Shown here: positions 3,664 to 28,752 of the stretch, in pieces
How positions within the stretch are numbered: the first letter of the stretch is position 1
How the letters are laid out: every line of letters starts with the position of its first letter
NCBI GenBank assembly: GCA_023260695.1
Contig: JALQUR010000548.1
Location: forward strand, 1-34,133
From: Planctomycetaceae bacterium
GTDB taxonomy: Bacteria; Planctomycetota; Planctomycetia; Planctomycetales; Planctomycetaceae
Direction: 5' to 3'
DNA length: 34,133 nucleotides
The notes under the pieces: generated by a model
The model's input: only the letters and a program-made list of their open reading frames with translations
Told to the model about the DNA's origin: nothing
Database searches by the model: none
Position numbers and translations under genes: made by a program

Positions 3664-5013
3664 GTGACCGATTCGAAGCCTCATCGCATCAAGCCGCAGA
3701 CCCTGCGCGGCTTCAGAGACTTCCTGCCCGACCAGATGATGGCTCGTGAAAAACTGATCGACACAGCTCGCAGAGTTTATCGCAGCTATGGATTTGCTCC
3801 GATCGACACACCGGCGCTTGAGTATGCCGAAGTTCTGCTTGGCAAAGGTGGTGACGAGTCCGACAAACAGGTCTTCCGTTTTCAGGATCAGGGCGGGCGC
3901 GACGTGGCAATGCGTTTCGACCTGACAGTGCCGCTTGCCCGATTTTCAGCTCAGCACGCGCAGCAGCTGGGTACCCCATTCCGCAGATATCACATCGGGC
4001 CCGTCTGGCGTGGCGAACGGCCGGCGCGTGGACGATTCCGCGAATTCCTGCAGTGTGACTTCGATACCATTGGTACTCTGAGCAATTCAGCTGATATCGA
4101 GACACTCTTCGTCATCAACGATCTGCTGGAGAATATCGGCATCGAGCGGTTCACGATCCGGGTCAATAATCGACGCGTACTGAACGGTTTGCTGGAGCGT
4201 ACGGGTGCTCAGGAGCAGGCTGTGGCCATCCTGCGTGCACTCGACAAACTGGACAAGATCGGCCGCGACGCCGTCAGCCGCGAAATGACAGAACTTTCCG
4301 GAGTACCGCAGCAGACGGCCGAGCAGGTGCTGGATATGGCCCAGCTGCAGGGCAGTCCGGATCAGATTCTGCTGCAACTGGAGAACATGCTGCAGGGAAG
4401 TGCCACCGGGGAACAGGGTCTGCAGGATCTGAAGCAGTTGTTTGCATGTGTTGCACACTGTGGCTGGCCGGACGATCGCGTTCGACTGGACGTCGCCATT
4501 GCCCGCGGCCTGGATTACTACACGGGAACAATTTACGAGACGGTGCTCGGGGACCTCCCCGGAATCGGCAGCGTCTGTTCCGGTGGACGTTACGACAACC
4601 TTGCTGATCTGTTTACAGCTCAGCAGCTGCCCGGTGTCGGTGCCAGTCTTGGTCTGGATCGAATGCTCGCTGCGCTTGAGGAACTCGGACTGCTCGAGAC
4701 ATCAACGACACCGGCTCAGATTCTGATCACCATGATGGACCAGGAACACATCGCGGAATACCTGCAGCTTGGGCGCAGACTGCGTCAGCGCGGCATTGGT
4801 GTCGAAGTCTACCCGGAGGCCCGTAATTTCGGCCGCCAGATGAAATATGCAGATCGCCGCGGCTTCCGCTACTGTATTATTGCCGGGAGTGATGAATTTG
4901 CGGCGCAGCAGTGGCAGCTGAGAGACCTTGCAAATGGCAGCCAGACTGTTGTCTCTGACGCTGCGGCTGATGCTGAAGTCGTGCAGATTCTGACTGCGGA
5001 AGCTGCAGACTGA
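3664..5013 (+). CDS. hisS: Histidine--tRNA ligase
   Basis: 449 aa with class II aaRS/HisRS motifs: [77 protein letters not shown] start preceded by GGAG. Confidence 0.97.
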
Positions 5014-5123
5014 ACGGCAGGAAATCTCTTCTGCTGAATCACCTGCAGTTCCCGCATTACATTCCGGCTGCTGAAACGGAATCTTCTCAGACCGGTCAAA
5101 CTTTCAGGCCAGACAACCCTGAC

Positions 5124-5963
5124 ATGCTCGAAAACCTCCCCTGTTCTGCACTGAAACACCATTCACTGACGATTGAGGGCTACTCACGCGCAGCTGTGCA
5201 GAGTTACTGGAGAGTCCCGGAACTGCACATCGGATTCGAACTCGGTGGTAGTCCGTGGATGTTCATGGGCACGCAGACCTTCCTGGTCACACATGGTCAT
5301 CTTGACCACCTTGCTGCTCTGCCCGTCTTTGTTGCCCGGCGACGCATGATGAAGATGGAGCCTCCGGTGATCTACCTGCCACAGCAGATCGTTGATGACA
5401 CATGGAGGATGCTGCGTGCCTGGCAGAAACTCGATCGCGGACGCATGAACTGTGAACTCATCGGAGTCAGCCCTGGAGACCAGATTGACCTCTCGCGTGA
5501 ACATCGTTTCACCGCATTCGAAACTGATCACCGAGTGCCCTCGGTCGGTTACATCATCTACGAAGTGCGTCGCAAACTGAAACCCGAGTACCATCAACTG
5601 ACTGGTAACGAGATCCGGGACCTCCGCCTGCAGGGTACTGATGTCACGGCCGAAATATGTACCCCCCTGCTCGCATTTACAGGTGATACAGCCCCGCCGG
5701 GTCTGGACAGCCATCCCGATATCTATCGCGCCCGTATTCTGCTCACCGAAATGACATTCTTCAGACCCGACCATCGTCGTGAGAAGATCCACAAGTTCGG
5801 ACACACTCACCTTGATGATCTGATCGAACGAGCGGACAGATTTCAGAATGAGCTGATTATTCTCGCCCATCTCAGTACTCGAACCCATGTTGACGAAGCT
5901 CGCAGAAGACTGCAGAAAGCACTCCCCGACTCGCTGCGAGAAAAAGTTCATCTGTGGATCTGA
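5124..5963 (+). CDS. Ribonuclease Z-like metallo-beta-lactamase fold hydrolase
   Basis: 279 aa with the HxHxDH motif ([13 protein letters not shown]), [21 protein letters not shown] and a late ILAHLSTR motif, typical of the RNase Z/MBL family. Confidence 0.82.
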
Positions 5964-5978
5964 AGAGAAGCACAACTC

Positions 5979-6494
5979 ATGTCCGCACCTCCACCACGTG
6001 TTCACATTGTCGGTCGCAGGAACTGTGGCAAGACAACTCTTGTCTGTGAGCTGATCACCGAATTCACCCGTCGTGGACTTCGTGTGGCATCTGTCAAACA
6101 CACGCACCACCAGCATGAACTTGATACTCCGGGAAAGGACTCCTGGAAACACCGTCAGGCCGGTGCCGCCATTGTCGGAATTCTGTCTCCGGGAATGACC
6201 GCTCTCTTTCGGCCATGTGACCGCAGTCACCGGGACGAAGACCGCTACCAGTCCCTGGTCAGCGCAGCAGCAGACTGCCATCTGGTAATTGTGGAAGGTG
6301 ATCTGCACACCACAGCTCCGCGAATCGAAGTCTGGCGGCAGTCAGCTGCGGAGCAACCATGGGCATATGAAGTACCCGGCATCAGCGTCGTTGTTACTGA
6401 TGACCCCATGGCAAACGCCCCCTGCCCCGTCTGGGCCAGAGGCGATGTTTCAGCCATCGCGGATGGAGTTCTGAATCTCGTCAGCACTGACTGA
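5979..6494 (+). CDS. mobB: Molybdopterin-guanine dinucleotide biosynthesis protein MobB-like P-loop protein
   Basis: VHIVGRRNCGKTTLVCELITEFTRRGLRVASVKHTHHQHELDTPGKDSWKHRQAGA is the MobB Walker A/N-terminal signature. Starts 15 nt after the RNase Z-like gene. Confidence 0.87.
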   Translation: MSAPPPRVHIVGRRNCGKTTLVCELITEFTRRGLRVASVKHTHHQHELDTPGKDSWKHRQAGAAIVGILSPGMTALFRPCDRSHRDEDRYQSLVSAAADCHLVIVEGDLHTTAPRIEVWRQSAAEQPWAYEVPGISVVVTDDPMANAPCPVWARGDVSAIADGVLNLVSTD

Positions 6495-6502
6495 CCTGAG
6501 CG

Positions 6503-6520
6503 GTGCAGGTGAGCCTGCAC
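6503..6520. other. Short perfect hairpin GTGCAGG-TGAG-CCTGCAC just after mobB
   Basis: 7-bp stem with a 4-nt loop, 9 nt after the mobB stop. No T tract follows, so an intrinsic terminator is only tentative. Confidence 0.4.
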
Positions 6521-6555
6521 ATCGCGGCTCTGCATCGCGTTACGCCGCCGGCGTC

Positions 6556-6614
6556 AGCGCAGCATCACGGTGTACAGCGCGCATCACGGTGTGCAGCGCA
6601 GCATCACAGTGTGC
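6556..6614. repeat. Three tandem copies of a ~20-bp repeat, AGCGCAGCATCACGGTGTRC-like
   Basis: AGCGCAGCATCACGGTGTAC / AGCGCGCATCACGGTGTGC (1-nt deletion) / AGCGCAGCATCACAGTGTGC, followed by a degenerate AGCGCGTCATTAC. Confidence 0.85.
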
Positions 6615-6698
6615 AGCGCGTCATTACATCGATCATACAAATCACACGGATTATGACGCGTCGCCAGGCAATTGAGTGACTCTTTCAGATTCAATGTA

Positions 6699-6720
6699 GG
6701 GTGTTAATTGTACCACACCC
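6699..6720. promoter_or_regulatory. Inverted repeat GGGTGT-N10-ACACCC upstream of the DUF3127-like gene
   Basis: Perfect 6-bp arms around an AT-rich centre (TAATTGTACC), about 100 nt upstream of the ATG at 6823. Candidate operator or stem-loop. Confidence 0.35.
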
Positions 6721-6822
6721 AATATCGCTCTACTTTTCACACTACACATCGGCGGCGAACGGCTTCGCTCCGTGATCAAATGCAGGCAGGCACTGAACGC
6801 AATTTCTTGAAGGAAACTGACA

Positions 6823-7200
6823 ATGACCGAACCTACACTGACCGGAAACGTCTACACCATCGAAGAAACGCAGACCTATGGACAGAAGGGCTTTCGCAAA
6901 CGTCTGATTGTGCTCACCCAGAAACGCGGACAGTATGTCAATTACATTCCTCTGGAACTCATCGGAGATGCCTGTGAAGCCGCGGATGAACTTGAGCGTG
7001 GCGACCAGATCAGCGCGCAGTACCGCCTCTCCGGACGCCGTTGGCAGCGGGACGAGGCCAGTGAAGTGCGTTACTTCCTGAGTGCTGAAGCACGATCGTT
7101 CGAACGTACAGAGCTGGCCACGCAACCAGTTGCTGCACAGCCCGTTGCTGCACAGCCGCAGCCAGCAGCTGCAGCTGACGAGCAGGATGTGCCGTTCTGA
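6823..7200 (+). CDS. DUF3127-like, OB-fold/SSB-like protein
   Basis: 125 aa: LTGNVYTIEETQTYGQKGFRKRLIVLTQKRGQYVNYIPLELIGDACEAADELERGDQISAQYRLSGRRW. C-terminus is an Ala/Gln/Pro-rich linker followed by DEQDVPF. Shine-Dalgarno-like AAGGAA upstream. Confidence 0.72.
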   Translation: MTEPTLTGNVYTIEETQTYGQKGFRKRLIVLTQKRGQYVNYIPLELIGDACEAADELERGDQISAQYRLSGRRWQRDEASEVRYFLSAEARSFERTELATQPVAAQPVAAQPQPAAAADEQDVPF

Positions 7201-7325
7201 GTCAACTTTTCGTCACAGCAACTGCATCGAACTCCCTGTCGCAGCAGCTCGGTCCGAGCTGCGTGCGGGGAAACTCAGCAGTGTGGCTCCGCCACAGGGG
7301 GATGTCTGCCTCCGCAGCAGTTACT

Positions 7326-7349
7326 CCGGGCCTGAAGCATCGGGCCCGG
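7326..7349. other. GC-rich inverted repeat CCGGGCC-N10-GGCCCGG between the DUF3127-like gene and the giant fusion gene
   Basis: Perfect 7-bp arms. A second small hairpin (TGTGGC-TCC-GCCACA) is at 7282-7296. Neither has a clear U tract. Confidence 0.35.
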
Positions 7350-7628
7350 ACATCCCACCGATCACATCCAGCAGACAGACTGTTGCCCGGATCGAACACG
7401 CGGCATCCCTGCGTCCCGTCATGGATCATGCAGTGGTAGTGCCACAGCTGCGAAGAATCGCAGCGATGACCAGCCCGCGAATCGGCTGACAGCACAGCAA
7501 CAGCTTCGATCCTTATCGTTCCAATCAGCGGCCCCTGGCGTGTGCTTCGCATCCAAATCGGTATACTTTGCAGCAGTCAGGCGATGCATTCCGATCGCCG
7601 CGCACTTCAGACCCAGCGGAGTATCAAG

Positions 7629-10600
7629 ATGGCACCGGCTTCAGCGACCGTGGTTATGCGTGCAGGACTATTGACGCTCGCAGTGCTCCATGCTGCAGCA
7701 CCGACCGCAGCCTCGGATGAGCCGACGGAGCAATCTCGGAAAATCCTTCCGACACTTGCAGCGGATCCAGCCAGTCCATGGTACCCGCACCGCAACTTCC
7801 CTCACCTGAAGACTTCCGACTGGGCAGGCAACCCGAATACACGTGCCGTCATTGTCCTGGCAATCGACGACATGCGGGACTCAGCGAAGTATGAGCAGTA
7901 TCTGCGGCCGATCCTGAACCGACTCAAGCAGATTGACGGGCGTGCTCCGCTCAGCATCATGACCAATCAGATCGACCCGAGCGACTCCCAGCTGCAGAGC
8001 TGGCTTGGAGAAGGGCTTTCCATTGAATGTCATTCGGCCGATCATCCCTGTCCGCTCCTGCACGACGGCGATCTGCAGGCGTCTGTCTCCACCTACAATC
8101 GCTGCGTGGATCAGATGGCAGCGATACCAGGCAATACTCCGGTCGCGTTTCGCACACCTTGCTGCGACTCACTGAATACCGTCAGCCCAAGGTTCTTTTC
8201 AGAGATCTTCAGCGGACAGACTGAACAACAGCGATTCCTGCAGATCGACTCCTCTGTCTTTATGTTCTACAGCTCGGCTGACCCACGGCACGCCCGCGAG
8301 CGCGTACTCAATGAAGACGGAGAAGACCGATTTCTGCGATACCTTCCCACCGGGAACAGATATCGCGGGCTGCAGAATGACCACTTTGTCAATTACGTCG
8401 AGAATTACCCATGGCCATGGGTCATCAATAATGACTGCTGGGAAATCCCCTGCCTTGCCCCCAGCGACTGGTCTGCGCAGCACCTGCAAGGCGTTAATAA
8501 TCCCCGTACGCTGGAAGACTGGAAGGCGGCCATTGATCTGACAGTCGCCGCTGATGGATGTTTCAGCCTCGTATTTCACCCTCACGGCTGGATTCAGGCA
8601 GAGCAGGTGGTCGAACTGATCGATCATGCGGTCGCGACCCACGGCGATGCAGTACAGTTCATGAACTTTCGTGAAGTAGCGCATCTGCTCAATCAGCGTT
8701 ACTGTGACGGTGGCAACCTGCGCGAAAATCCTCCGCAGTTTCTTGCTGACTGGAAGCAGTCCCGCGATGCCTCTGCCCCCGATGTCGCCGCGCTGAATGA
8801 ACAGGATCAGGACCTGCTGGAGCAGATCCTGCAGCATCCAAAGGACTACGGTCTGCCGCCAGTTCGTCTGGACGACGGAAGTCACAACGGGTTCTTCATC
8901 CACAAGCAGCATCTCTGCTGGCAGAACGAACACACATCCGGCAATGACGACCTGCTCGTGAGAGTTTCGATTCCGGATCTGCTGCAGCGTGTCCGTCGTG
9001 AGGAAGCGAGGCGTGACTATCCGCTCACACCTGTTGGCTCCGCCATTGTCGACATTACACCGGACTATCCAGTACGTCTGACCGGCTATGGTGGTCGCAG
9101 TGAAGAAGCAGAAACGGCCGCAGTCAGCATTCATGCTCGAGCTCTTGCAATCGGCCCCGCCGACAACCTCCAGACACTGCTGCTGACCGTTGACAACTGC
9201 GGCATACCTGCCTCCGTGACAGAGCGTGTCTACGCACAGATCAGCGAACAGATTACTTTGCCGCGGGAGCGATTCGCGATCTCAGCGACACACTCACATT
9301 CAGCTCCCTGGCTGCGGGATTTCGCCCCGAATATCTTTGCGGAGATCCCACCTGAGCACGCAGAACACCTCGCCCGCTACGAAACAGAACTCACACGGAA
9401 GCTTGTCGACGTGGCATTGCAGTCACTTCGCCGGATGACTCCTGCAAAGTTATCACTGGGTTACGGCCACGCCGGCTTCGCGATGAACCGCCGTGCACTG
9501 ACAGACGGCCGCTGGTCGGGATTCGGAGAAGTCCCTGATGGTCCGGTTGACCAGCGAGTCCCGTTGCTGGCTGCACACGATGCAGACGGCAGACTCATGG
9601 CATTGCTGGTGAACTACGCCTGTCACTGCACCACCGAGGGCGGTAACTTCAATCAGATCAGTGGCGACTGGGCCGGATTTGCAGCGGACATGCTGGAAGA
9701 AGAATTTCCGGGGACAGTAGCCCTGGTGTCGATCGGTTGTGGTGCAGATGCCAATCCGTCTCCGCGGGGAACACACGAACAGGGCAAGGCGCACGGCAGA
9801 ACACTTGCCAACGAAGTGATTCGCATTCTGCAAGAGGCACGTCTGCAGCGAATCAATCCGCAGATCACATGTCGGCTGGATCATATCGACCTTCCCCTCA
9901 CTGCAATCCCGGATCGAGCCGGCTGGGAGCAGCAGGCTCAGCAGGGCGGCGTCACAGCATCCCGCGCAGACTGGTTCCTGAAACTGCTTGATGACGGCGG
10001 ACAGATTCCTGCAACCGTGCCGTCATACCCGGTTCAGACATGGTGCTTTGGCGATGATCTGGCCATGGTTTTTCTGGCAGGAGAGGTCGTTGTTGATTAT
10101 GCCCTGAGACTGAATGAGATGTTTGATGGCAGCAGATTGTGGATCAACGCCTACAGCAACGATGTCCCCTGCTACATCACATCGTCAAGATTACTGCGCG
10201 AGGGCGGCTACGAGACTGATTCCTCCATGCTCTACTACCGCCAGCCCGGTCGGCTGGCCCCGGAGACAGAAGATCTGATCTGTCAGACCGTGCAGCGCCT
10301 GACTCCGCACGATTTCTACTCGGAAGCTCTCCGGGAGGAATTCCCGGAACCGAAATCAACGGATGATGCCCTGAACTGCTTCACTGTACGTCCAGGGATG
10401 CAGGTCGTGCTGGCCGCAGCGGAACCTCTCATCCGCGACCCTGTAGCCTTTGACTGGGACCATCGAGGCCGTCTGTGGGTCGTCGAAATGGGTGATTATC
10501 CCCTCGGAAACGGCCCCCATCACGGGCGGGTCAGGATTCTGGAAGATATCGATGGGGACTACCGTTATGACACCGCAGTGACATTTCTTGACAACCTGCA

Positions 10601-13600
10601 GTATCCGTCAGGGATTCAATGCTGGCAGGACGGCGTCATCATCACGATGGCACCGCAGATCTTCTACGCGGAGGATACAACAGGAGACGGTATCGCTGAT
10701 ATCAGAGAGACTTTGTATCAGGGATTTGCGGAGGGCAATCAGCAGCATCGCGTCAATGGTCTCCGCTGGGGACTTGATGGCTGGCTGTATCTGGCCAACG
10801 GCGACAGTGGGGGATCCATTGGCGGTACCGGATTCATTCCGGGCAGCGCGGCAGCAAGGGCCCCTTATGCAGGCATTGAACTGCGCGGCCGTGACCTCAG
10901 GATTGACCCTCAGACAAATCGCCTTGAAGCGCTGGCGGGGCAAAGTCAGTTTGCCAGAGAACGCGACGACTTCGGCAACTGGTTCGGAAACAATAATTCC
11001 AATCCCATCTGGCATTATCAGTTTGAGGATCGTTACCTGTCTCGTAATCCCCATGCCGGAATCTCTGGCGGACGCGCTGGTGTGGCCGCGATTCCCGGCG
11101 CCGCACCTGTCTTTCCCTCCAGCAAAACCCTTGCAAGATTCAACGACTTTGCAGCGTCCAATCGATTCACGTCAGCATGCAGCACGATGATCTTCCGCAG
11201 TCATCGGCTTGGTGCAGAGGTCTACGGAAATGCCTTTACATCAGAACCAGTGCACAACCTGATTTCCAGACTGGTGCTGACCCCGGCCGTGGATGACAGC
11301 CGTATTGGATTCCATGGTGAGCGTGCGGCTGACGAGCAGGATTCGGAATTCCTGTCGTCCAGCGACAACTGGTTTCGCCCCACGATGCTGCGAACCGGCC
11401 CGGATGGAGGCCTCTGGGTCGCTGACATGTATCGTGCAGTTATTGAACACCCGGAATGGATCCCGCAGGAGTTTCAGCGACGCATGGACCTGACCGCTGG
11501 CACTGACAAGGGGCGTATCTGGCGAATAATTCCAGAGTCTGCATGTTGTGGTGCAGCGTCAGACTCCACAGCAGCCGAGACAGGCCATTACACGGCAGAT
11601 TTCCTGAATTCCAGCTGGCGGGACATCCCTCCGGACTCACTTGCGAACTACTTTACTGTTCAGAATGGATGGTGGAGAGATCTGGCACATCGACTGCTGA
11701 GTCATCATGCCGCCGTCAGTTCCGCCTCAACCGTTGGCTCATCCGCAACCATTACTGCTGGTACCGATCTGCTTGAACTTGCTGCAGACGGTGGAGCAGT
11801 CGGGCTGCAGGCGCTTTATGCCGCGCAGCAGATTCTGGCAGAAATCCCGAAGGTCAGTACGCCGCAGCTGCTGCGTCCGTTCCTGCAGCATGCCGATCCG
11901 GAACTTCGCAAAGCCGCTGTTCGTCTGCTTGAGGACGACCTTGATCAGATCGGTGATGCGGATACAGAAGCACTGACGCAACTGATTGCAGATTCGGATT
12001 ACGGCGTACGTCGGCAGCTGTTGCTTACCCTCGGGCAGTCGCATGCTGACTGGGCTGCAACACTGCTTGGCAATGCACTTGCAGAATCAGCAGATCAGCC
12101 GGTTCTGGTCAGCTGTGGACTCACATCTCTGCATTCGGACAATATTGCCACGGTTCTGAGTGTAATCTCCAGTCGCCCGGCAACACCGCAGATCCTGCAA
12201 TTGACCCGCCGACTCCTCCCACAGGCAGCCAGGCTGGGGGCATCTGAAGCAGCTGCAGCTCAGACGATTGCACTCCTGCGTTCCATAACCCCAGAGACGG
12301 GCACTGCGTCCTTCGCCGACCTGGCAGATTTACTCCGGGAAGTCCTGCAGAGTAATGCTGCGGGCACGCTGCTGAATACGGCGGAGGTCACACAGCTGAG
12401 AAAATCGTCGGCAGCAACCGCAATCGTGATCACGCGAGATGCGAGGAATGAGCCGGATCGCAGACTGGCAGCGTTTGAGTTTTTTGCAGTGGTTTCCCCA
12501 GCAGCCGTCTCCGCGGCAGACCAGGAACTGCTGCTCAGCCCTGTCACACCACCGGTCCTGCAACAGGCCCTGATCCGAAATCTTGTCGGAACTGGCGATA
12601 TTGATCGGGTCTCCACACTGGCGGCAGCCTTTGATCAGCTTTCTCCCACTGTGCGATCCGAACTGCTGGAACAACTCATCCGCCGTCCCCGCGTTACCAC
12701 CGTTCTGCTGGACCAGATCGAAACGAAGCGTATCTCCATAGCGGAACTCAACGCACAGCACCGTCAGACACTGGTCGAACATCCGGATGTCGAGCTCGCG
12801 AGGCGGGCAACCGCACTCCTGCAGCCGGAAGCAAAAGGAAATCTGCAACAGCTGATTGAGCAGCAACTGAGTGCTGTGGAGCAGCTGCAGGGATCCGTGG
12901 CTGATGGTCAGGAAGTCTTTCGCAGACACTGTTCAGCCTGCCATCGCGTGGGCGACACGGGGAGGGAAATCGGAGCAGATCTGACGGCACTCAAGGACCG
13001 CTCTGCCGGCTCACTGCTCACCGCAATACTTGATCCGAATCGCGCAGCCGAATCAAAGTTTCTCAGCTATTCCGTAGTGACGTCACGCGGCCTGCAATTG
13101 ACAGGTATGCTGCGAAACGAGACGGGCAGCAGCATTACACTACTCTCTGCAGACGGCAAGGAACAGGTGCTGCCTCGTTCCGAGATTGATCTGCTGCAGA
13201 GCTCCGGGAAATCACTCATGCCCGAAGGACTACAGCGTGACCTCAACAGTCAGCAGCTGGCAGACGTCATCGCATTTCTGCAGCAGGCTGAGTCCCCCTG
13301 GAAGCGCTTCCCGGGAAATCAGCCGCAACCGGTGTCAGCTGATGACGAAGGAAATCTGATTCTGGCCGCTGCTCAGGCCGAAATTCATGGCCCCAGCCTT
13401 GTCTTCGAACCGCAGTACCAGAATCTGGGCTACTGGTGTTCCACAGACGACTTTGCTTCGTGGACTGTGGATGTCCCGGTCGGCGGTCACTGGACCCTCG
13501 AACTGCGTTACGCCTGTGATGATCAGACTGCCGGTGGACTGATCAGGTTTTCGACTGGTACGCGAATGCTCACCTCACGAATTCCGGGAACCGGAACATG

Positions 13601-13742
13601 GGATGAATATCGCACATGGAACGCAGGTACGCTCGATCTGCGTCGCGGACGCAATCGCATCACGGCAACCGCTCTTGAGGCTCCGCGAATGGCCCTGATC
13701 GATCTTCACTCAATTCGTCTGGTACCGCCTACCGCAGACTGA
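7629..13742 (+). CDS. Giant exported multidomain protein: polysaccharide-deacetylase-like, neutral ceramidase-like, PVC-type dehydrogenase propeller, HEAT repeats, CxxCH haem-binding domain, C-terminal beta-sandwich-like module
   Basis: One continuous frame. ATG at 7629 is preceded by GGAG and a signal peptide follows (the track's 7542 GTG is less likely). Motifs: VIVLAIDDMRDS and ECHSADHPCPLL (deacetylase-like); AIVDITPDYPVRLTGYGG and AISATHSHSAPW (ceramidase-like); VAFDWDHRGRLWVVEMGDYP and EDTTGDGIADI (PVC dehydrogenase); EVFRRHCSACHRVG (haem CxxCH, nt 12930-12944). Confidence 0.9.
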   Translation: MAPASATVVMRAGLLTLAVLHAAAPTAASDEPTEQSRKILPTLAADPASPWYPHRNFPHLKTSDWAGNPNTRAVIVLAIDDMRDSAKYEQYLRPILNRLKQIDGRAPLSIMTNQIDPSDSQLQSWLGEGLSIECHSADHPCPLLHDGDLQASVSTYNRCVDQMAAIPGNTPVAFRTPCCDSLNTVSPRFFSEIFSGQTEQQRFLQIDSSVFMFYSSADPRHARERVLNEDGEDRFLRYLPTGNRYRGLQNDHFVNYVENYPWPWVINNDCWEIPCLAPSDWSAQHLQGVNNPRTLEDWKAAIDLTVAADGCFSLVFHPHGWIQAEQVVELIDHAVATHGDAVQFMNFREVAHLLNQRYCDGGNLRENPPQFLADWKQSRDASAPDVAALNEQDQDLLEQILQHPKDYGLPPVRLDDGSHNGFFIHKQHLCWQNEHTSGNDDLLVRVSIPDLLQRVRREEARRDYPLTPVGSAIVDITPDYPVRLTGYGGRSEEAETAAVSIHARALAIGPADNLQTLLLTVDNCGIPASVTERVYAQISEQITLPRERFAISATHSHSAPWLRDFAPNIFAEIPPEHAEHLARYETELTRKLVDVALQSLRRMTPAKLSLGYGHAGFAMNRRALTDGRWSGFGEVPDGPVDQRVPLLAAHDADGRLMALLVNYACHCTTEGGNFNQISGDWAGFAADMLEEEFPGTVALVSIGCGADANPSPRGTHEQGKAHGRTLANEVIRILQEARLQRINPQITCRLDHIDLPLTAIPDRAGWEQQAQQGGVTASRADWFLKLLDDGGQIPATVPSYPVQTWCFGDDLAMVFLAGEVVVDYALRLNEMFDGSRLWINAYSNDVPCYITSSRLLREGGYETDSSMLYYRQPGRLAPETEDLICQTVQRLTPHDFYSEALREEFPEPKSTDDALNCFTVRPGMQVVLAAAEPLIRDPVAFDWDHRGRLWVVEMGDYPLGNGPHHGRVRILEDIDGDYRYDTAVTFLDNLQYPSGIQCWQDGVIITMAPQIFYAEDTTGDGIADIRETLYQGFAEGNQQHRVNGLRWGLDGWLYLANGDSGGSIGGTGFIPGSAAARAPYAGIELRGRDLRIDPQTNRLEALAGQSQFARERDDFGNWFGNNNSNPIWHYQFEDRYLSRNPHAGISGGRAGVAAIPGAAPVFPSSKTLARFNDFAASNRFTSACSTMIFRSHRLGAEVYGNAFTSEPVHNLISRLVLTPAVDDSRIGFHGERAADEQDSEFLSSSDNWFRPTMLRTGPDGGLWVADMYRAVIEHPEWIPQEFQRRMDLTAGTDKGRIWRIIPESACCGAASDSTAAETGHYTADFLNSSWRDIPPDSLANYFTVQNGWWRDLAHRLLSHHAAVSSASTVGSSATITAGTDLLELAADGGAVGLQALYAAQQILAEIPKVSTPQLLRPFLQHADPELRKAAVRLLEDDLDQIGDADTEALTQLIADSDYGVRRQLLLTLGQSHADWAATLLGNALAESADQPVLVSCGLTSLHSDNIATVLSVISSRPATPQILQLTRRLLPQAARLGASEAAAAQTIALLRSITPETGTASFADLADLLREVLQSNAAGTLLNTAEVTQLRKSSAATAIVITRDARNEPDRRLAAFEFFAVVSPAAVSAADQELLLSPVTPPVLQQALIRNLVGTGDIDRVSTLAAAFDQLSPTVRSELLEQLIRRPRVTTVLLDQIETKRISIAELNAQHRQTLVEHPDVELARRATALLQPEAKGNLQQLIEQQLSAVEQLQGSVADGQEVFRRHCSACHRVGDTGREIGADLTALKDRSAGSLLTAILDPNRAAESKFLSYSVVTSRGLQLTGMLRNETGSSITLLSADGKEQVLPRSEIDLLQSSGKSLMPEGLQRDLNSQQLADVIAFLQQAESPWKRFPGNQPQPVSADDEGNLILAAAQAEIHGPSLVFEPQYQNLGYWCSTDDFASWTVDVPVGGHWTLELRYACDDQTAGGLIRFSTGTRMLTSRIPGTGTWDEYRTWNAGTLDLRRGRNRITATALEAPRMALIDLHSIRLVPPTAD

Positions 13743-13797: not shown

Positions 13798-15306
13798 ATG
13801 AAAAACCCTTTGTCAGGTCTCTGTCTGCTGCTGCTCGCAGGAATCTGCGCGACTCCCGAAGTTCTGCTCGCCGACAATCTGATTCAGACAGAGAATCGCA
13901 GGGAAGGATCAACGGACTGGCAGCTGACGCGTGTTCGTGTTGCTGGCAGTGAGTGTCGCTCGGTACCGATCGAAGGTTATTGTTCGCACCAGAGCATCGC
14001 TGCCGGTGAAACTCTGGACATCATGGTTTCCACAAACCCCTCTCGCGACTTTCGTCTCGAAGTTTTTCGTACCGGCTATTACGGTGGTCGTGGTGCCCGC
14101 CTTCTGAAAACCGTTGAGCGAATTGAGGGCAGCACACAGAGTGACCCTGAACCGGGGGATAAGAACCTGCACGAATGTCGCTGGAAATCGTCATATAGCC
14201 TGACCATTCCAGAAGACTGGATCAGTGGAGTGTACCTCGGTCGTCTGACGACCATCCCGGACGGTGAAGAGCCGTACTGGCAGAGTTATGTCATCTTCAT
14301 TGTGAAGGACGACCGCCCCGTAGACATCCTGTTTCAGTGCTCGGATAACACCTGGCAGGCCTATAACCTGTGGCCCACAAATTTTTCCGTGTACACCCAC
14401 CCCAAAGGCGGTCAGGGCCCCTGGGCGGATGTCAGTTTTGACCGACCTTATGGCCGGGAAGCTCAGTTCATGTCCGTTGTCAACGATCCGCTTACGACAG
14501 GATCCGGTGAGTTTCTGCCTTACGAGTTTCCGATGACGTACTGGCTGGAGGAACAGGGTTACGATGTCAGCTATTGTTCCAACAGTGATCTGCTCACACC
14601 CGATCGGGGGCTCAAATGCCGCGCATTCATCAGCATTGGCCATGACGAGTACTGGGACCGCCGTCAGTACGACAGTGTTGTTCGTATGCGTGACGAAGGT
14701 GTGAGTCTGCTGTTTCTCTCCGGAAACAGCGTCTGTTGGGTCAGTCCATTCCGATCAGCTGCAGACGGACGCCCGAATCGAATCATCTTTCGTGGCGGAC
14801 CTTACGGTGGTGACAACGAGTACGCGGTGCAGCGACATGAACAGCATGGACCATTTCCTGTTCGTGGACCGGACGAAGGCCTTTTGATGGGCGCGCGAAA
14901 TGTAGAGCCTGTCAATGGCGGGGGCGACTGGACTGTCACCGCTGCCGACCACTGGATTTTCGCCGGCAGCGGAGTTCAGAACGGAGATGCGATCCCCGGC
15001 CTGATCGGGTGGGAATATCATGGGGACCCTGCTGATATCACGGGGCTGGAAGTCGTTGCAGCCGGCACGGCCTGGCAGGGGGGAAAGAATCCCCAGAAGT
15101 GGACCGCGACGATTTATCCCGGACCACGCGGAAACTTCGTCTTCAATGCAGCAACAATCTGGTGGGCTCAGGCTCTCGGGGATCCACCGGGACACACGTT
15201 GCCATGGTCGCACTACAGCAGGCCCCACGGACCGGACGAACGCGTCAGGATCATTACTCACAATCTGCTGAAGAAAGCGATTGCTGCCGGCGACGATGCT
15301 CGGTGA
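13798..15306 (+). CDS. N,N-dimethylformamidase beta subunit-like exported protein
   Basis: 502 aa with signal peptide. FRLEVFRTGYYGGRGARL, GVYLGRLTT, WQAYNLWPTNFSVY, FPMTYWLEEQGYDVSYCSNSDL and FISIGHDEYWDRRQYDSV match the DMFase-beta-like family. Confidence 0.8.
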   Translation: MKNPLSGLCLLLLAGICATPEVLLADNLIQTENRREGSTDWQLTRVRVAGSECRSVPIEGYCSHQSIAAGETLDIMVSTNPSRDFRLEVFRTGYYGGRGARLLKTVERIEGSTQSDPEPGDKNLHECRWKSSYSLTIPEDWISGVYLGRLTTIPDGEEPYWQSYVIFIVKDDRPVDILFQCSDNTWQAYNLWPTNFSVYTHPKGGQGPWADVSFDRPYGREAQFMSVVNDPLTTGSGEFLPYEFPMTYWLEEQGYDVSYCSNSDLLTPDRGLKCRAFISIGHDEYWDRRQYDSVVRMRDEGVSLLFLSGNSVCWVSPFRSAADGRPNRIIFRGGPYGGDNEYAVQRHEQHGPFPVRGPDEGLLMGARNVEPVNGGGDWTVTAADHWIFAGSGVQNGDAIPGLIGWEYHGDPADITGLEVVAAGTAWQGGKNPQKWTATIYPGPRGNFVFNAATIWWAQALGDPPGHTLPWSHYSRPHGPDERVRIITHNLLKKAIAAGDDAR

Positions 15307-17418: not shown

Positions 17419-20400
17419 TCATTGTTCCTGCTGCGGCCGAATCACCAGTTCTGCTGCACCTGTCCTGAGAATCAGGTGTTGTTTCTCAGCGTCGAAGACC
17501 AGCGGTTCGCCTCGATACTGGCTGGACATGAGTACTACGGGCTCAGCGAGGAGTTCTTCTCCGTTGCGAGCATTCAGTACCATCACGGAGATCGGGAGGT
17601 TGCCAAACCAGACATTCTGCGTTTCAGACATCAGCCGAACCGGTGGTTCAGGCGCTCCCGTGGACGATTCAGGCGTTCCTGTTTCATGTCTGCTGAACAG
17701 CACAACGGCATCACATGCATCCCCCGCCAGCAGCGGAAGAACAGCGTTTTGAATCGGCCTTGACCAGCGGATCTCGCTGGTTGCCTTATCCACAACAACA
17801 AGCAGGCCGGTCATTTCAGGTGTCTCCTCACCCGACATATACGACCGTTGCTGGCGACGATCAGCTGCCGTCCTCAGCAACAACAGATGCTCGTTGTCAC
17901 GAGGAATCAGATACAATGCGACACACGGCTCGTCAGGCGGCAGAGGTATTTGAACACGATTGACGATTCCTCCGGAGCGAGGATCGATGGTAACAAGCTG
18001 CCCTTCATTGCTGACAGCCATGATCATTCCACTGTCCGTAACGACCGCAATCGAGTGCTGTTGATAGACTCCGATCCGAACGGGTGCGGATGTGGCCAGA
18101 ACATCTCGACCATCCAGCGGATCAAGGACGTGCAGACGGTACTCCGGATCCGTAAACACGAAGAATCTTCCGATCACAAATGGAGTCGTTGAGAATCCCA
18201 GCGGAATCGTCCCCGATCGGAGCAGTTCGCCGGTTCTTGTATCCCAGGCAGACCACGCTTTTGTTCCGCTCCAGAGTGTGACCGTGACCTGTTCATCTCC
18301 CCAGAGATGTGGAAAATCTGCACCACCATCGGTCAGGCCCCCGGGTCCATGAAATGCCACGTCCCTGCACCAGAGGTCCCTTCCGCTCAACAGATCCGTA
18401 CAATGCAGTTGCCGGTCGTAATACCAGACCAACCCACTGCTGGTGAGCGGTCCTGCAGACATTGAAGAGGATTCGGAAAGACTGCGTTCCCAGAGCGTTC
18501 TCAATTCGCCATCTGCTCCCAGTCTGACCATACTCAGGCTCTGTAAATCCGCCAACGGCAGCAGACCCGGTACATCCGCAATCTGCCCCTGCGTCACCAT
18601 TGATGAGTAATAGCGATTCCGCGCGGCTGCAAAGCCGGATTGAGTCTGGTCAATCCAGTCAGCTTCGCCGCCGATGCTGGAGATTCCCGCGCTGTCGCAG
18701 AATCCCAGAGTGTGAACACCACCGAGATCGATGCGCAGGATCAGTCGATTTCCATACCACGCCGGAAGACGCATCTGATACTGTGACAATGGACTTGCGT
18801 TTGTGAGCTCCGTCCACTGGGGCTGCTCAGATGGGGACTGAACGAAAATGCCGCCGTCAATGTCGCCCGCATTCGAATTCCTGAAACTGCTGAACGAATA
18901 TCGGACTGCAGCCTGCAGCGATGACTGATCGCGAAACAACTGATCTTCATCAGAGAACTCCTGCCGGGGAACGATCCCGCGAATCCTGTTGAGCTGTTCG
19001 CGTATTTCGCTCGTCTCGTCGCCTGTTCTCAGCAGCCAGTTATGTCGCCCCGACCAGACAATTTCTTCAGCAGATGACATACCGCGCGAACGCAGCGTTG
19101 CACACAAGTGCTGAACTTCAACCCTCGTCAGAAGTTCAGGATACCTTGACGCAAAAGATGCCAGCGCAAGCAATCTGTCTGTGGGCAGATCTGCTGCTTC
19201 GAGCCAGGCATGCATCGCTTCGGTTTCAGGCAGACAACGTTCTGACAGGCTCCACGTTCGACTGACAGGGATCAGCGGTGACGCAGAAATCGTGAGCCTT
19301 CGTTGCCTCCCACAGGCAATCAATCCGGGGTTCTCCAGTACCCTGCCCAGCAGATAACAGCGAGCCCTCAGGTCATCACTCAGATTCAGAGCGAGCAGTT
19401 CCTGAACAATCGCCTGGTCGTCTGCGGTGATCCGCGGGCCGGACGCTGAATTCTCCTGCCACCCGAGTTCATCAAGCAGTGCCGCAGCAGTCAGATCATC
19501 CAGAAACTGCACTAACTGCATGTCTGAGGGATCTGTCATCGTGCGCAATCTGCGCACCCGGTCAAGGTGCCCGTCAAGCATCAACGCTGCCGCTTTAATG
19601 CGGACATCTGCCGTTGAATCCGCGACTCTGTCAGCCCGACGAAACGCCTTCACCTGTGTGCCATTCGTCTGATACACAAAGTTCGAGTGCATGCTCAATG
19701 CCGCTGCAGCAACGTTCTCTCCAGCTGACGCTGCCTGAGACCAGCCCACTGACTTCCCGGTCCGCAGGTCAATTGCCAGAAACTGAGAGCGCGACGTCAG
19801 CACAAAGCACAGGTCTTCGTGACAGCTCGGTGGCACGGAAAGATCCGGAAACTCAATCACCCAGAGCTGCTCTCCCGTGGCAGGATCAAGAGCACGCAGA
19901 TGGTGTTCACCGGACAGCACGAGGCGATCAGTGGACAGCTGAATCACCATGCGGTCCCTGCTGACTGTCTGACAGTAGTCCAGGAATACATTGCCCGCGG
20001 TATTCCAGACGACTTTCCCGGTCGCGCTGTCCAGGCATTGCAGATTGCCGGTGGAGGGAGACATGCAGAAGATCCTGCGGACCGAGACAGCCCCGCTGAA
20101 CTCTGCTGCGCTGACGGTGGAATTCTCCGTCGCCCAGGGCGTTGTGTCTTCAACGTCAGCATGAAACGCCGGATTGTTCGGCACATGAACCCACTGGATT
20201 TCGCCGGTTCCCTGCTCTGCAGACATCCAGATGCAGGAACTCAACTGACAGATCACACTCCCGCCAGCAACGTAGCATCGCACGGGAAACATCGCATGCT
20301 GATCATATACGCTCATCCATGGGCGGAAATCCGACTGCTGCGTCTGCCCTCCGATACTCACAGGCTGCTGCCAGTACACGCGTCCGGTTCCGCGATTCAG

Positions 20401-21846
20401 GCAGTTCAGAAAGCAGACGCCATCTGACTCACTCAGAATGAACAACCGCTGCTCATTGATTGCGGGAGGACACAGGAACTCATGCCCCGCAAGCGGGGCC
20501 GCCACTCTCAGACTGCTGTCTTCCTGAAGTACAACAGCGTGATTCCCTTCCAGCATGTCGAAATCATCAGCGGTCATTCTTTTTGTAATCGGACCGGCAC
20601 GCACTCCACCGGTATAACCATGCGCATCACCAGCGACCCATGCGATCTGCGGTGCCTGGTCCCCATCCCTGTATCGCAGGGCGACAAGACTGCGCGCTCG
20701 TCGTAAGTCTGCCTGCGGCAGACTCTGGTCCGGAAGCAGATGCCGAAAATTCCGGAAAGGATCATCAGCTGCCGCTGTCTCCAGACCGCGATCAAACAGA
20801 TCCAGTCCCCCAAGAACCCATAAATCTCCGCCATCACAGACGATCTGTCGTCGAGAAAAATCCAGCATCATCAGCTGAGTATGAGTGATGTATTTACCGA
20901 GTCCCGCCGGAAATTCTCCTCCTCTTTCTGAGACGCTCTGATCGTTGCCCCGATCGCCAGCGGATGATTCTTCGATCAATGACCAACGCTCTGCGCCCGT
21001 CTCAGGGTCGAGGCCCGCCACGCGAAATGGCGTGCGCGTCACCAGCCAGTCGCCCCAGCGCTCCAGCGGATGACTGCGGACACCGTACAGATTACCCCAT
21101 TCACTCAGCAGACCTGACGCAACAACCCGATGCTCCAGACTTCCCAGCCAGCTCGTCTCACTCCAGGACCAGTCCGGCTCTGCAACCCAGTTTGACGCAG
21201 TCCGGGAAGGTGAGGTCGCGGGAAAAGGCTGAAACAAATCAAACTTCTGCTGCAGTCTCGTGATCAGCTGACCTGCTTCGTCAGCCAGAATGGTTCCCGC
21301 ATGTCGCTTACGGATTCGCTCGATCCCTGCTGAAACTGCAGTAAAATCTGCCTGCAGTAATCTCCAGTTCAGCACGATGAATTCCGCACGCAGTCCCTCA
21401 CGTGTCAGGGGGTAGCGTGCAGCCACATCCGACAACTGCTGCGCAGATCTGAGCCGCAGCGCCTGCTGCAACGCGGCACTGCCCGCCGCTTCATTCAGAA
21501 TCTGCCAGCTTCGCTGAACCTCTGGAGACGCCTGTCGTAATAACTGCACTGAGAATTCACGCTGACCAGTCCAGACCGATTCTTCCGACTTGCCCATCGC
21601 GACATCAATGGGATGAGCAAACACCTGCTCCAGAACACTGAAAGCAGCATTGTTCAATGGCTGCCCGGCAATTCTTCTCAGCATCCGTTCGCGATCACGC
21701 AGACGGATTAACGACTGTTCCGCACCTGATGTTTCCTCAGGCAGGCTCAGACCCTGAATTCCCTGTGCGGAACAATTCGCAGCAGTGAAGCACAGCAGGG
21801 AGCACAGCAGGGAGCACAGCAGCAGGAAAAAGCGATTCTGCGCCAT
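17419..21846 (-). CDS. Giant PQQ-like beta-propeller repeat protein, exported
   Basis: Frame is open from 21930; the ATG at 21846 is preceded by GAGG and followed by a signal peptide (MAQNRFFLLLCSLLCSLLCFTAANCSA). Repeated PQQ-like blades: DPETGAERWSLI, DSATGKVVWNTAG, DPATGEQLWVIEF, DLRTGKSVGWSQ, DKATSEIRWSRPI. Confidence 0.82.
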   Translation of the reverse strand: MAQNRFFLLLCSLLCSLLCFTAANCSAQGIQGLSLPEETSGAEQSLIRLRDRERMLRRIAGQPLNNAAFSVLEQVFAHPIDVAMGKSEESVWTGQREFSVQLLRQASPEVQRSWQILNEAAGSAALQQALRLRSAQQLSDVAARYPLTREGLRAEFIVLNWRLLQADFTAVSAGIERIRKRHAGTILADEAGQLITRLQQKFDLFQPFPATSPSRTASNWVAEPDWSWSETSWLGSLEHRVVASGLLSEWGNLYGVRSHPLERWGDWLVTRTPFRVAGLDPETGAERWSLIEESSAGDRGNDQSVSERGGEFPAGLGKYITHTQLMMLDFSRRQIVCDGGDLWVLGGLDLFDRGLETAAADDPFRNFRHLLPDQSLPQADLRRARSLVALRYRDGDQAPQIAWVAGDAHGYTGGVRAGPITKRMTADDFDMLEGNHAVVLQEDSSLRVAAPLAGHEFLCPPAINEQRLFILSESDGVCFLNCLNRGTGRVYWQQPVSIGGQTQQSDFRPWMSVYDQHAMFPVRCYVAGGSVICQLSSCIWMSAEQGTGEIQWVHVPNNPAFHADVEDTTPWATENSTVSAAEFSGAVSVRRIFCMSPSTGNLQCLDSATGKVVWNTAGNVFLDYCQTVSRDRMVIQLSTDRLVLSGEHHLRALDPATGEQLWVIEFPDLSVPPSCHEDLCFVLTSRSQFLAIDLRTGKSVGWSQAASAGENVAAAALSMHSNFVYQTNGTQVKAFRRADRVADSTADVRIKAAALMLDGHLDRVRRLRTMTDPSDMQLVQFLDDLTAAALLDELGWQENSASGPRITADDQAIVQELLALNLSDDLRARCYLLGRVLENPGLIACGRQRRLTISASPLIPVSRTWSLSERCLPETEAMHAWLEAADLPTDRLLALASFASRYPELLTRVEVQHLCATLRSRGMSSAEEIVWSGRHNWLLRTGDETSEIREQLNRIRGIVPRQEFSDEDQLFRDQSSLQAAVRYSFSSFRNSNAGDIDGGIFVQSPSEQPQWTELTNASPLSQYQMRLPAWYGNRLILRIDLGGVHTLGFCDSAGISSIGGEADWIDQTQSGFAAARNRYYSSMVTQGQIADVPGLLPLADLQSLSMVRLGADGELRTLWERSLSESSSMSAGPLTSSGLVWYYDRQLHCTDLLSGRDLWCRDVAFHGPGGLTDGGADFPHLWGDEQVTVTLWSGTKAWSAWDTRTGELLRSGTIPLGFSTTPFVIGRFFVFTDPEYRLHVLDPLDGRDVLATSAPVRIGVYQQHSIAVVTDSGMIMAVSNEGQLVTIDPRSGGIVNRVQIPLPPDEPCVALYLIPRDNEHLLLLRTAADRRQQRSYMSGEETPEMTGLLVVVDKATSEIRWSRPIQNAVLPLLAGDACDAVVLFSRHETGTPESSTGAPEPPVRLMSETQNVWFGNLPISVMVLNARNGEELLAEPVVLMSSQYRGEPLVFDAEKQHLILRTGAAELVIRPQQEQ
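21791..21822. repeat. 12-bp tandem repeat (about 2.7 copies of CACAGCAGGGAG) inside the signal-peptide coding region
   Basis: Direct sequence cacagcagggag/cacagcagggag/cacagcag, in frame, giving the repeated CSLL in LLLCSLLCSLLC. Confidence 0.85.
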
Positions 21847-21930
21847 CACCACGAACCTCGCACCGGTCTGGAGATTTCCCTGACCATTCAGAGACGGCAA
21901 CAGCATGAGTGATGTGCACTGGATGGGCAC

Positions 21931-23499: not shown

Positions 23500-26400
23500 T
23501 CACTGCACGGCAGCCGGGACCAGACGCACATAGTCCAGCCCCAGCATGAACGACCTGACCGCCTGCGGATTGGCTCCCGTGATCTCAAACGTCAGCCGCT
23601 GCGGACCTTGCTGAACACGAATACCGCCGTAAGTAAGAACACCTGTCGTGATCACCTCGCCGGAATTGAATAAATCAACGCCGGCATCAAGCACTTTCTC
23701 CCCCAGTGTGACGCGAAAAACTCCGTAGTCTCTCGCACGTGTCAAAACCAGTTCCACATCCCATATCCCGTCGGCGGGTACTTCAATCTCAACGGCCAGA
23801 CGATCTCCGGGAGCAGCTCCTGTCCACCACAACTGATCCGCTCCACTCCAGCGCGCCGCTCGAAAATCACCCATTGGCTGGCTTGCAGCACGCCCGGCTG
23901 TCTTCTCCACAATCTTCAGTTTCTCGCCTTCCTGAGCTCCCTCAACTCGACCGGATTCTGCATTAATCGGTGCTGCTGGTCCCGACAGCGCAACCTGCAC
24001 CGGACTGCCCAGATATGCCACCAGATCACGAACTTCATCGCCACTGAGTGCGTCAAGCTGACGCTCCGGCATCATGGAAATTGTTGAGAGAGTTCGCTCT
24101 TCAATTTCAGCCAGAGGAATCACAAGCTGATCGTTGAGTGTCTGAATTGTCAGCGCACTGTCTGTTTCGCGTCGCAGCATTCCCTGCACAACACGACCAT
24201 CTGTGAGTGCCAGAACAGTCACCTGATAGTCCCGCCCCACAACAGCACTGGGATCCAGCATGTTCTCCAGAATGTAATCCAGATTTGCCCTGTTTGAGCC
24301 GGTGATGTCGGGGCCGATCTGCCCGCCAGTTCCAAACAAGCTGTGACAGTTCTGGCAGGTTTTCGCAAATACTCTGCGACCGTTTCCACGGCTGGCCTTG
24401 CTGAGAATTGCAGGTGTCAGTTTCTTCTTCCATTCCGCCAGCTGTTTCTGCCTGTCGGCATCCGACTCGCGAATCTCACCCCAGTGCTTCTGCAGCAGTT
24501 CGTTCAGTTCCGCGTCTTCAAATGTCAGAATCTGTCGCACGTGATAAGCATGCAGGTCAGCACTGCGGACTTCGCCATCGGCAATTGCCGTCAGCAGGCT
24601 TCTGACCCAGAGCGGGCGTGACACCAGAGTCCCGATGGCATCTGATTTCACTTCCGCAGGAAAGTCCGAATACTCCCGCAGCAGAACGCTCGGTGTCTGA
24701 TCTCCCCCCAGTGTTGCCAGAGCTCGAACTGCTGCCCCCTGGAGCGCAGACTGTCGGAGTACCCCCGGGCTGAGGAGTACAGAGGATGATTCACGGTCCT
24801 GACCGCGAACCAGCACTGCAAGTGCCTGCTGGCGACGCTCAGCGGAAGCCTCCTGATCCGCCAGCAGATTTCGCATCGCACCAAAGACCCGCTGGTCCCC
24901 GAACAACACAGCCAGCTGATCTGCCCGGTCGCGAACCGCCTGCTCTGCCGACTTCTGCAGATGCGGATACGCTGACTTCCAGCCTTCCGGCATCGGAATA
25001 TCCACACGTCCTTCGCAGGCAGCCATCACTTCCTCAAGAAACAACAGCTGCTGATCTGCACTGTCAGTATCAGCCAGCAGCTCAATAACCGCCGGCAGCG
25101 ACTGATTGTCGGAAGCTGCACGGCGAACAATGAACCGCCGCAGCTTTTCAATCGGCGTGGCAGCGGCAATCTTCATGGCTGCGGCAGGATCCGCCGCAAC
25201 CAGTGGTTCGATCCCATACCACAGCATCAGTGGCAGATTATGATCGGTGGCATCTTCCGCATGTGCAGCCAGGGCACCTGCCAGTCCGACACGCCGCTCG
25301 ACGGGGATTCTCTGCAGCGCTGAACTCAGATACAGCCGCACCACCGCAGAATCATCCGCCTCGGCGAGCTCCTCCAGCATCGCCAGCAGTTCATCGGAAA
25401 TCTGCAGGTCCTCAAGTTCCAGCTGAATTGTCCAGCTGCGAATCCATGCTTCGGAATCCTTCAGTAACCGCACAACCTGCTCAGAATCCAGACCATTGGC
25501 CGCATGCAGCGACCACAGACAACGCAGTCTGTGAGACAACTTCAGATCAGAATCAGCCGCATGTCGCCACAGATCTGCCGCCAGCTGCCGGGAACAGCCA
25601 CGTTCCATCAGCTGTCGGGTCGCCATCCGGCTGAACCACTCGTTCTGATGAAAGTGCATCTGCAGCAGTTCAGCTTCACTCCATTGCGAAGCATCAACAG
25701 CCACAGCCTTCGGCTGTCCATACGCAACGCGATAAATGCGACCGTTGGTGCGATCCCAGATCTCAGGATTGGTTCGATGGCATGCATTCCGGTCATACCA
25801 GTCGATCAGCAGCACGGTTCCGTCCGGACCATAACGCAGATTGATTCCGCGGAAGTAGTGATCATTGGCAACCAGCAGATCCTGACCGTGATGTCCGACC
25901 CATGATGAGTCCCCCTGAACCTGCTCCAGCACGTCGCAGTTCACCCGATTGCCGTGCACGTTATTGAAGTAGATTCGGTTGCGATATTGCTCGGGCCAGT
26001 TATCGCCGAGGTAGATCATTGCTCCGCAATGAGCATGTCCGCCACCAGCGTCGAGTGTCGCACCCGCAGCCTGAGGCTCGTGTCCCCACCATGCATGATC
26101 ACGGATATTCCCCACATAATGTGCGTGGTCCGCAATCGTCCCGATGTCTTCGTAAGTATACGGATTAAAGTGCTGCCCCCCCTGCCGCTGATACCTTGCC
26201 CCCTGAATCACATGCCAGAGGTGAGGAATCACGCAGGCCGTGATGAATGCCTGCCCTCGATCATTGAAGTCAACCCCCCACGGGTTACTTGTGCCATGCA
26301 TGAACGGTTCAAACACATCGCGCACCGGATGATAACGCCAGACTGCCGCATTCAGGGGAATTCGATCAGTATCCACAGCACCCGGACGTCCTGCTCGAGA

Positions 26401-28224: not shown

Positions 28225-28752
28225 TGAAGTACCTGTTCGCAGAAGTTGGGACGGATAACTACAGCAGCATACCAGCTGAATCACGAGCAACTGAACTGCG
28301 TCAGTCGCCTGTTCAGCGGAGAGGCATACTTTATCCTTACGGACGAAAAACCGCCATGTCGCAGACTGCACCTGCCCCGGGAAGGAATCAGGATTCGTGA
28401 ATTACGTCTTCGCTGCCGACTGGATTCTGCTGTGCTGTGCATGGTCTGAGTTTCCGCCCCCGCCCGGGTGGCAGCAGATTCGATCAATCCGCCCCTTCCG
28501 ATACAAACGCCAGGCTTTACTGATCTTCCCCCGTTCAGCCGAATTCCTGCTGTCTGTGATCAACTGCTGCTGCCGACATCCAGAGAAAGACTGGAAGGCA
28601 ATTTGCAGCTTTCGGTAAGCCGGAGCAGTCCTGTTGCTCCTTTAGAAACTCATTCACACTACGATTCCCAGTGGATTGTCTGGCTGCACGAACCTGAGAA
28701 CTGTGCGCTACGATACAACTGCGATCTGATCAGGCCAACCTCGGAGAAACTC

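Follow-up and report, generated by a model that had tools for sequence, protein, structure and literature searches.

Giant cytochrome proteins are numerous in planctomycetes and their relatives, with a function that He et al. (2017; PMC5615132) describe as unknown. What might such a protein do when hydrolases are built into the same chain? The question is raised by a gene at 7629-13742 (+) of contig JALQUR010000548.1 from a Planctomycetaceae bacterium (class Planctomycetia), of which we analysed positions 1 to 34,133 (the window, 34,133 nt). An earlier note, made from the letters of the window alone, had read the gene as one exported six-module protein that deacylates a conjugate and oxidises the product. 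We find that the window protein is genuine, a modular enzyme that has been rebuilt repeatedly and a variant of the PVC-type cytochrome class. As to its working, the reading that we favour, tentatively and at somewhat less than an even chance, is that of an exported, glycan-anchored hydrolase-redox enzyme of the PVC type (TIGR02604/TIGR02603), in which the hydrolases would be interchangeable plug-ins on a redox and binding chassis, not obligatory steps of a cascade.

One reading frame and its modules

Starting at ATG 7629, the frame stays open for 2,037 codons and closes with the stop at 13742, as had been claimed. An in-frame GTG is also present upstream, at 7542; ATG 7629 is preferred because a GGAG lies 7 nt before it and because the protein of the nearest relative begins at the same residue. 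Families were assigned by the curated cut-offs of Pfam and NCBIfam, and folds by Foldseek on two AlphaFold models, one of aa (amino acids) 30-902 (mean predicted local distance difference test score, pLDDT, 89.7) and one of aa 900-2037 (mean pLDDT 85.7). Together with profile and fold matches at the C-terminus, these assignments confirm the module order below and bear out the six modules of the earlier note in the order in which it gave them.

7618..7621 (+): Shine-Dalgarno-like GGAG, 7 nt before ATG 7629 (read directly in the sequence)
7629..7715 (+): signal peptide-like N-terminal segment, aa 1-29, ...LLTLAVLHAAAPTAA (hydrophobic segment)
7746..8738 (+): CE4/NodB polysaccharide-deacetylase-like module, aa 40-370 (PF01522, PdaC profile match, Foldseek CE4 structures, invariant residues)
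8739..9023 (+): linker, aa 371-465, of which aa about 404-460 correspond to the closing motif of the relatives' FG-GAP region, the blades being missing here (comparison with relatives)
9024..10319 (+): neutral-ceramidase-type zinc hydrolase module, aa 466-897, with H555, H557, R621, H666, E819 and Y849 (PF04734, 4wgk/2zws profile match, Foldseek 2zws, conserved ligands)
10341..11558 (+): DUF7133/TIGR02604 propeller, aa 905-1310; H1040 aligns with the catalytic-base His of glucose/sorbosone dehydrogenases (GSDH), His144 of soluble glucose dehydrogenase (sGDH) (Pfam/NCBIfam, fold search, GSDH alignment)
11586..12863 (+): HEAT-repeat solenoid, aa 1320-1745 (PF13646 at 1.1e-5, below cut-off; helical array with HEAT/ARM fold matches)
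12876..13298 (+): cytochrome c module, aa 1750-1890, with C1768-x-x-C1771-H1772 at nt 12930-12944 and the likely axial Met1864 at nt 13218-13220 (TIGR02603, Cytochrom_C, fold match)
13341..13739 (+): C-terminal CBM6/CBM35-like (carbohydrate-binding module) beta-sandwich, aa 1905-2037 (alignment profile, fold match)

The chain is probably exported, given its signal-like N-terminus and the hydrophobic 10-mer that precedes the NodB module in 50 of 52 homologues. The NodB module itself passes the Pfam cut-off for Polysacc_deac_1 (PF01522, aa 69-180) marginally, at 23.9 vs 23.1 bits; its profile matches PdaC (6h8l) at E 3.4e-5, and its model retrieves CE4 structures at E about 1e-6 to 1e-5. Seven residues (D80, D81, H135, H139, R175 and P177 as R175-x-P177, and H317) are invariant in 56/56 homologues. 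We take D80 to be the base, D81, H135 and H139 the metal site, and the others the RxP and C-terminal His motifs of CE4 enzymes. Motif residues and NodB fold are thus common to this module and the CE4 deacetylases (PdaC 6h8l, 3rxz, insect chitin deacetylase 5znt), but the module is divergent (profile E about 1e-5) and, in the relatives, is typically followed by an FG-GAP region. That region is still present in most relatives, and the window protein keeps only its closing motif (NGFFIH..H.CWQNE.T). The deacetylase region, which the earlier note proposed to split off at about nt 9040, covers aa 40-370; aa 371-465 are a linker outside it.

The second hydrolase matches Ceramidase_alk (PF04734) at aa 469-694, with 41.9 bits against a cut-off of 32.1, over positions 3-231 of a 509-position profile. 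It also matches 4wgk/2zws by hmmsearch (E about 1e-19), and its model matches neutral ceramidase 2zws (E 4e-26). In the alignment to 2zws, H97, H204, E411 and Y448, the zinc ligands of that enzyme, correspond to H555, H666, E819 and Y849, the E411/Y448 pair coming from a weak 1.5-bit local alignment. All four are kept in the homologues that reach these positions (22/22, 22/22, 21/21 and 21/21, respectively), and H557 and R621 likewise in every homologue that reaches them. The module thus has in common with the neutral ceramidases of Pseudomonas aeruginosa (2zws) and human (4wgk) the N-terminal catalytic fold and equivalents of the zinc ligands and of H99. It differs in its size (about 430 aa, vs 646 in 2zws), in its position in mid-chain and in its end, where no Pfam match to the C-terminal ceramidase domain was found in the window protein. 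Catalytic metal ligands, on which the earlier note had staked its reading of the N-terminal regions, are therefore present in both hydrolase modules. A ceramide or sphingolipid is no more than a possible substrate: the zinc site is kept, but known neutral ceramidases have a C-terminal domain that this module lacks.

The rest of the chain is the chassis. DUF7133 is matched at aa 911-1303 (481.8 bits) and TIGR02604 at aa 923-1303 (259.3 vs 122.2 bits), HEAT_2 (PF13646) falls just under its cut-off (26.0 vs 27.7 bits), and the cytochrome passes both TIGR02603 (106.8 vs 68.15 bits) and Cytochrom_C (29.0 vs 21.3 bits). The two Cys and the His of CxxCH and the conserved Met are found in 45/45 homologues, and Foldseek matches this part to the diheme cytochrome c Kustd1711. 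The C-terminal module lies below the Pfam CBM cut-offs; its alignment profile matches the CBM35 of the exo-beta-D-glucosaminidase CsxA (E 1.7e-6), and its fold that of 2w1w (CBM35/CBM6; template modelling (TM) score by target 0.80). Propeller, HEAT and CxxCH follow one another as in the PVC-type haem-binding CxxCH proteins (TIGR02604 + TIGR02603; DUF7133), both of whose NCBIfam cut-offs are passed, but the window protein adds two N-terminal hydrolase modules and a CBM6/35-like end.

Relatives, selection and the traffic of modules

The window comes from a fragmented metagenome-assembled genome (MAG) of 734 contigs, so that a frame of this length might have been misassembled from separate genes. 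This is refuted by collinear relatives, and we give it practically no credence. An independent planctomycete MAG has a collinear, full-length protein (JALRDR010000631.1, with 88% in its best segment), and a search for the same module order, which the earlier note had proposed, found it in further genomes and genera as well, including the single-contig 8.9-Mb assembly G071. Comparison of the window protein with its nearest relative gave ratios of nonsynonymous to synonymous substitution (dN/dS) of 0.034 for NodB, 0.047 for the ceramidase, 0.039 for the propeller, 0.044 for the cytochrome and 0.067 for the C-terminal module, and of 0.16-0.18 for HEAT and the linker. Purifying selection acts on every module.

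Of the 398 genomes sampled from the class, 142 carry a NodB module of this family, spread over 71 of 186 genera; within the taxonomic family the figure is 84 of 170 genomes. Most of the loci that we read have it within a NodB/FG-GAP/DUF7133/HEAT/CytC/CBM protein about 1,600-1,880 aa long; in others it occurs in a stand-alone NodB/FG-GAP protein. Ceramidase/DUF7133/HEAT/CytC proteins without NodB also exist, and two other families have chains with both hydrolases (L115, L116). The propeller tree joins the two-hydrolase proteins to NodB/DUF7133 proteins, not to ceramidase-only ones. Inheritance of the propeller from ceramidase-only proteins was weakly rejected when two-hydrolase and ceramidase-only proteins were constrained together (approximately unbiased test, p-AU 0.038). 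In the ceramidase tree, the modules of NodB-ceramidase chains form one clade (support 97/99); one row of the first such tree, a stand-alone ceramidase translated from the wrong strand (L005), is to be disregarded. On the simplest reading of these trees and alignments, a ceramidase would have been inserted between the FG-GAP region and the propeller of a NodB/FG-GAP/DUF7133 protein. FG-GAP blades would have been lost afterwards in several lineages, including that of the window, leaving the closing motif as a linker.

Losses have struck the hydrolases too. In one congener (L168, 6415-11895) NodB is wholly missing and the protein has a signal-like N-terminus of its own; in another (L098, 5035-11049) NodB is down to a fragment. 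In both, the chain still has ceramidase, propeller and cytochrome as well as the C-terminal module, and in the tree L168 adjoins the NodB-bearing L063 (support 95/82). Elsewhere the split runs between genes: L104 has NodB/FG-GAP and DUF7133/HEAT/CytC in two genes of the same strand, with about 0.8 kb between them. In the window's own genome, the chassis bears other N-terminal enzymes, namely a GDSL hydrolase with PA14 (L150), ThuA with F5/8C (L151) and an alpha/beta-hydrolase (L160, the same protein as L003).

Two further loci are recorded here as observations in their own right. In L084, a separate ceramidase-family gene (4660-6111, -) is divergent to a NodB/DUF7133 gene (6070-10935, +) and overlaps its start. 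In L113 (G311), the NodB, FG-GAP, propeller and cytochrome parts each have a frame of their own, and the four frames overlap (8158-13353), which may reflect frameshifts, decay or sequencing errors.

How the chain may work

In the favoured reading, that of plug-in hydrolases on a redox chassis, the CBM6/35-like domain at the C-terminus would tether the protein to a carbohydrate-rich substrate. N-acyl or O-acyl groups would be taken off by the CE4 module (metal site D81, H135, H139; base D80), and N-acyl groups by the zinc module of ceramidase type (H555, H666, E819, Y849). Deacylation could expose a free amino-sugar or amino-alcohol. The exposed sugar or alcohol may then be oxidised by the DUF7133 propeller, and electrons would pass to the His/Met haem c of the same chain and on to a periplasmic acceptor.

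The hydrolases are read as plug-ins rather than as a fixed cascade because the same chassis bears other hydrolases in this genome and because modules have been lost. A linear cascade within the chain, as the earlier note proposed, would have NodB and ceramidase process one and the same lipid or amino-sugar conjugate, one after the other, with the propeller oxidising the product. Such an arrangement would make sense of a chain that keeps the catalytic residues of both hydrolases, of the single origin of the ceramidase modules in two-hydrolase chains and of the persistence of the architecture in several genera. Most relatives, however, have NodB only and others ceramidase only, and the natural loss of NodB from L168, and all but a fragment from L098, with the remaining modules retained, argues against an obligatory sequence. 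These losses, together with the NodB-only and ceramidase-only relatives, indicate that the modules can work apart; the series on one substrate is not established, and we consider it improbable. It is very unlikely that either or both of the hydrolase modules have become inactive and survive as relics for binding only: the marginal deacetylase match and the loss or reduction of NodB in congeners would fit, but the CE4 motif is invariant in 56 homologues, the zinc ligands are kept wherever the alignment reaches, and dN/dS is about 0.04.

The propeller is the harder case. Direct membership in the GSDH family was rejected, and several results weigh against the oxidative part of the favoured reading. 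A search of the window propeller with Pfam GSDH (PF07995) gave no match up to E 10, and profile-profile comparison links it to GSDH only weakly (probability 1.4%, E 0.037). The equivalent of Arg228-Asn229 is missing, the aligned segment reading GQSQF (for the roles of His144, Arg228 and Asn229 in sGDH, see PMC6881810). PqqE was not found above cut-off in 40 relatives; a PqqC search was run without a positive control. Nor does the neighbourhood offer any clue to the substrate, no gene context being conserved beyond a DMFA2_C gene in five loci. The missing Arg-Asn pair, the lack of a GSDH match and the PqqE result also speak for a rival in which the propeller serves for binding or as a scaffold, the haem acts as relay or sensor, and the hydrolases alone are catalytic. 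So does the fold search, where a luciferin-regenerating enzyme was the sole clear propeller match among the PDB matches listed (a PDB sequence search gave no significant match), as does the loss of the sGDH-like His from several paralogues. Against the rival, H1040, in an ungapped local alignment with the GSDH His, is kept in 38/42 homologues, and many polar residues of the propeller are invariant. Moreover, paralogous propellers of the same genome match DUF7133 and Pfam GSDH alike (L151 at 27.5 vs 25 bits, above cut-off; L152 at 23.7, just below), L151 has the Arg-Asn pair, and a GSDH-cytochrome chain occupies the same slot as the DUF7133 propeller beside the same cytochrome. We regard the scaffold role as unlikely, though deserving of serious weight.

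Since paralogues match both families, a GSDH-cytochrome fills the same slot and H1040 aligns with the GSDH His, the propeller is likely to be related, remotely, to the glucose/sorbosone dehydrogenases, and oxidation by it is plausible. The sugar dehydrogenase of the earlier note is not established: the His144 equivalent is kept, but the Arg-Asn pair and the Pfam match are missing, and no PqqE above cut-off was found in the 40 relatives. Dependence on pyrroloquinoline quinone (PQQ) is doubtful on the same grounds (the missing Arg-Asn, the weak GSDH profile and the PqqE result), unless PQQ is scavenged.

By analogy, the nearest worked-out design would be the pyranose dehydrogenase of Coprinopsis, which joins a cytochrome, a PQQ propeller and a CBM in one chain (PMC4332668). 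The window protein shares this design logic with the AA12/sGDH quinoprotein dehydrogenases (Coprinopsis CcPDH, Trichoderma TrAA12) and keeps their His144 equivalent, but it has neither an Arg228-Asn229 equivalent nor a GSDH match, and it carries haem c, not haem b. Closer to home, the planctomycete-specific cytochromes PSCyt1-3 are large PVC cytochromes joined to CBMs; carbohydrate metabolism has been proposed as their role (He et al. 2017, PMC5615132). In the part of that paper cited here they are described by combinations of PSCyt and PSD domains and, unlike the window protein, without a hydrolase fusion. An open literature search for this module order found no paper on it, only the general PSCyt work and the AA12 analogues.

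Fused to the PVC chassis, hydrolases with intact metal sites suggest a testable role for this class, namely the removal of a group from a glycan or lipid conjugate followed by oxidation of what is exposed. The NodB/propeller form spans many genera of the class, so that work on one member would inform many genomes, and FG-GAP loss, ceramidase insertion and NodB loss make up a natural series of ready-made variants. At its most ambitious, and with a rather low chance of being right as a whole, the proposal is a secreted deacylate-and-oxidise machine. Two metal-dependent amide hydrolases, a quinoprotein-like dehydrogenase and a haem would unmask and oxidise an N-acylated amino-sugar or amino-alcohol conjugate in place, the electrons leaving through the chain, as one case of a general planctomycete design with many hydrolases on one redox chassis.

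Neighbouring genes

About 55 bp downstream of the megaprotein gene lies a second gene that looks exported.

13798..15306 (+): DMFA2_C (dimethylformamidase/acylase-like) protein (PF20254, 1.4e-73)

Its product weakly matches N-acetyl-(R)-beta-phenylalanine acylase (8huy), and the Pfam DMFA2_C match covers nearly the whole profile, as in the dimethylformamidase/N-acetyl-(R)-beta-phenylalanine acylase family; what sets it apart from that family is its place, as a separate exported-looking gene beside the megaprotein gene in one lineage only, at the +1 position in five loci. It is a probable operon partner in this lineage and would be a third candidate amide hydrolase.

Two large genes lie further along on the other strand. 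At 17419-21930 (-) a 1,503-aa protein has PQQ_2/BamB-like propeller repeats, and at 23500-28371 (-) the window holds a second DUF7133/cytochrome protein, of 1,623 aa, with FG-GAP repeats in front.

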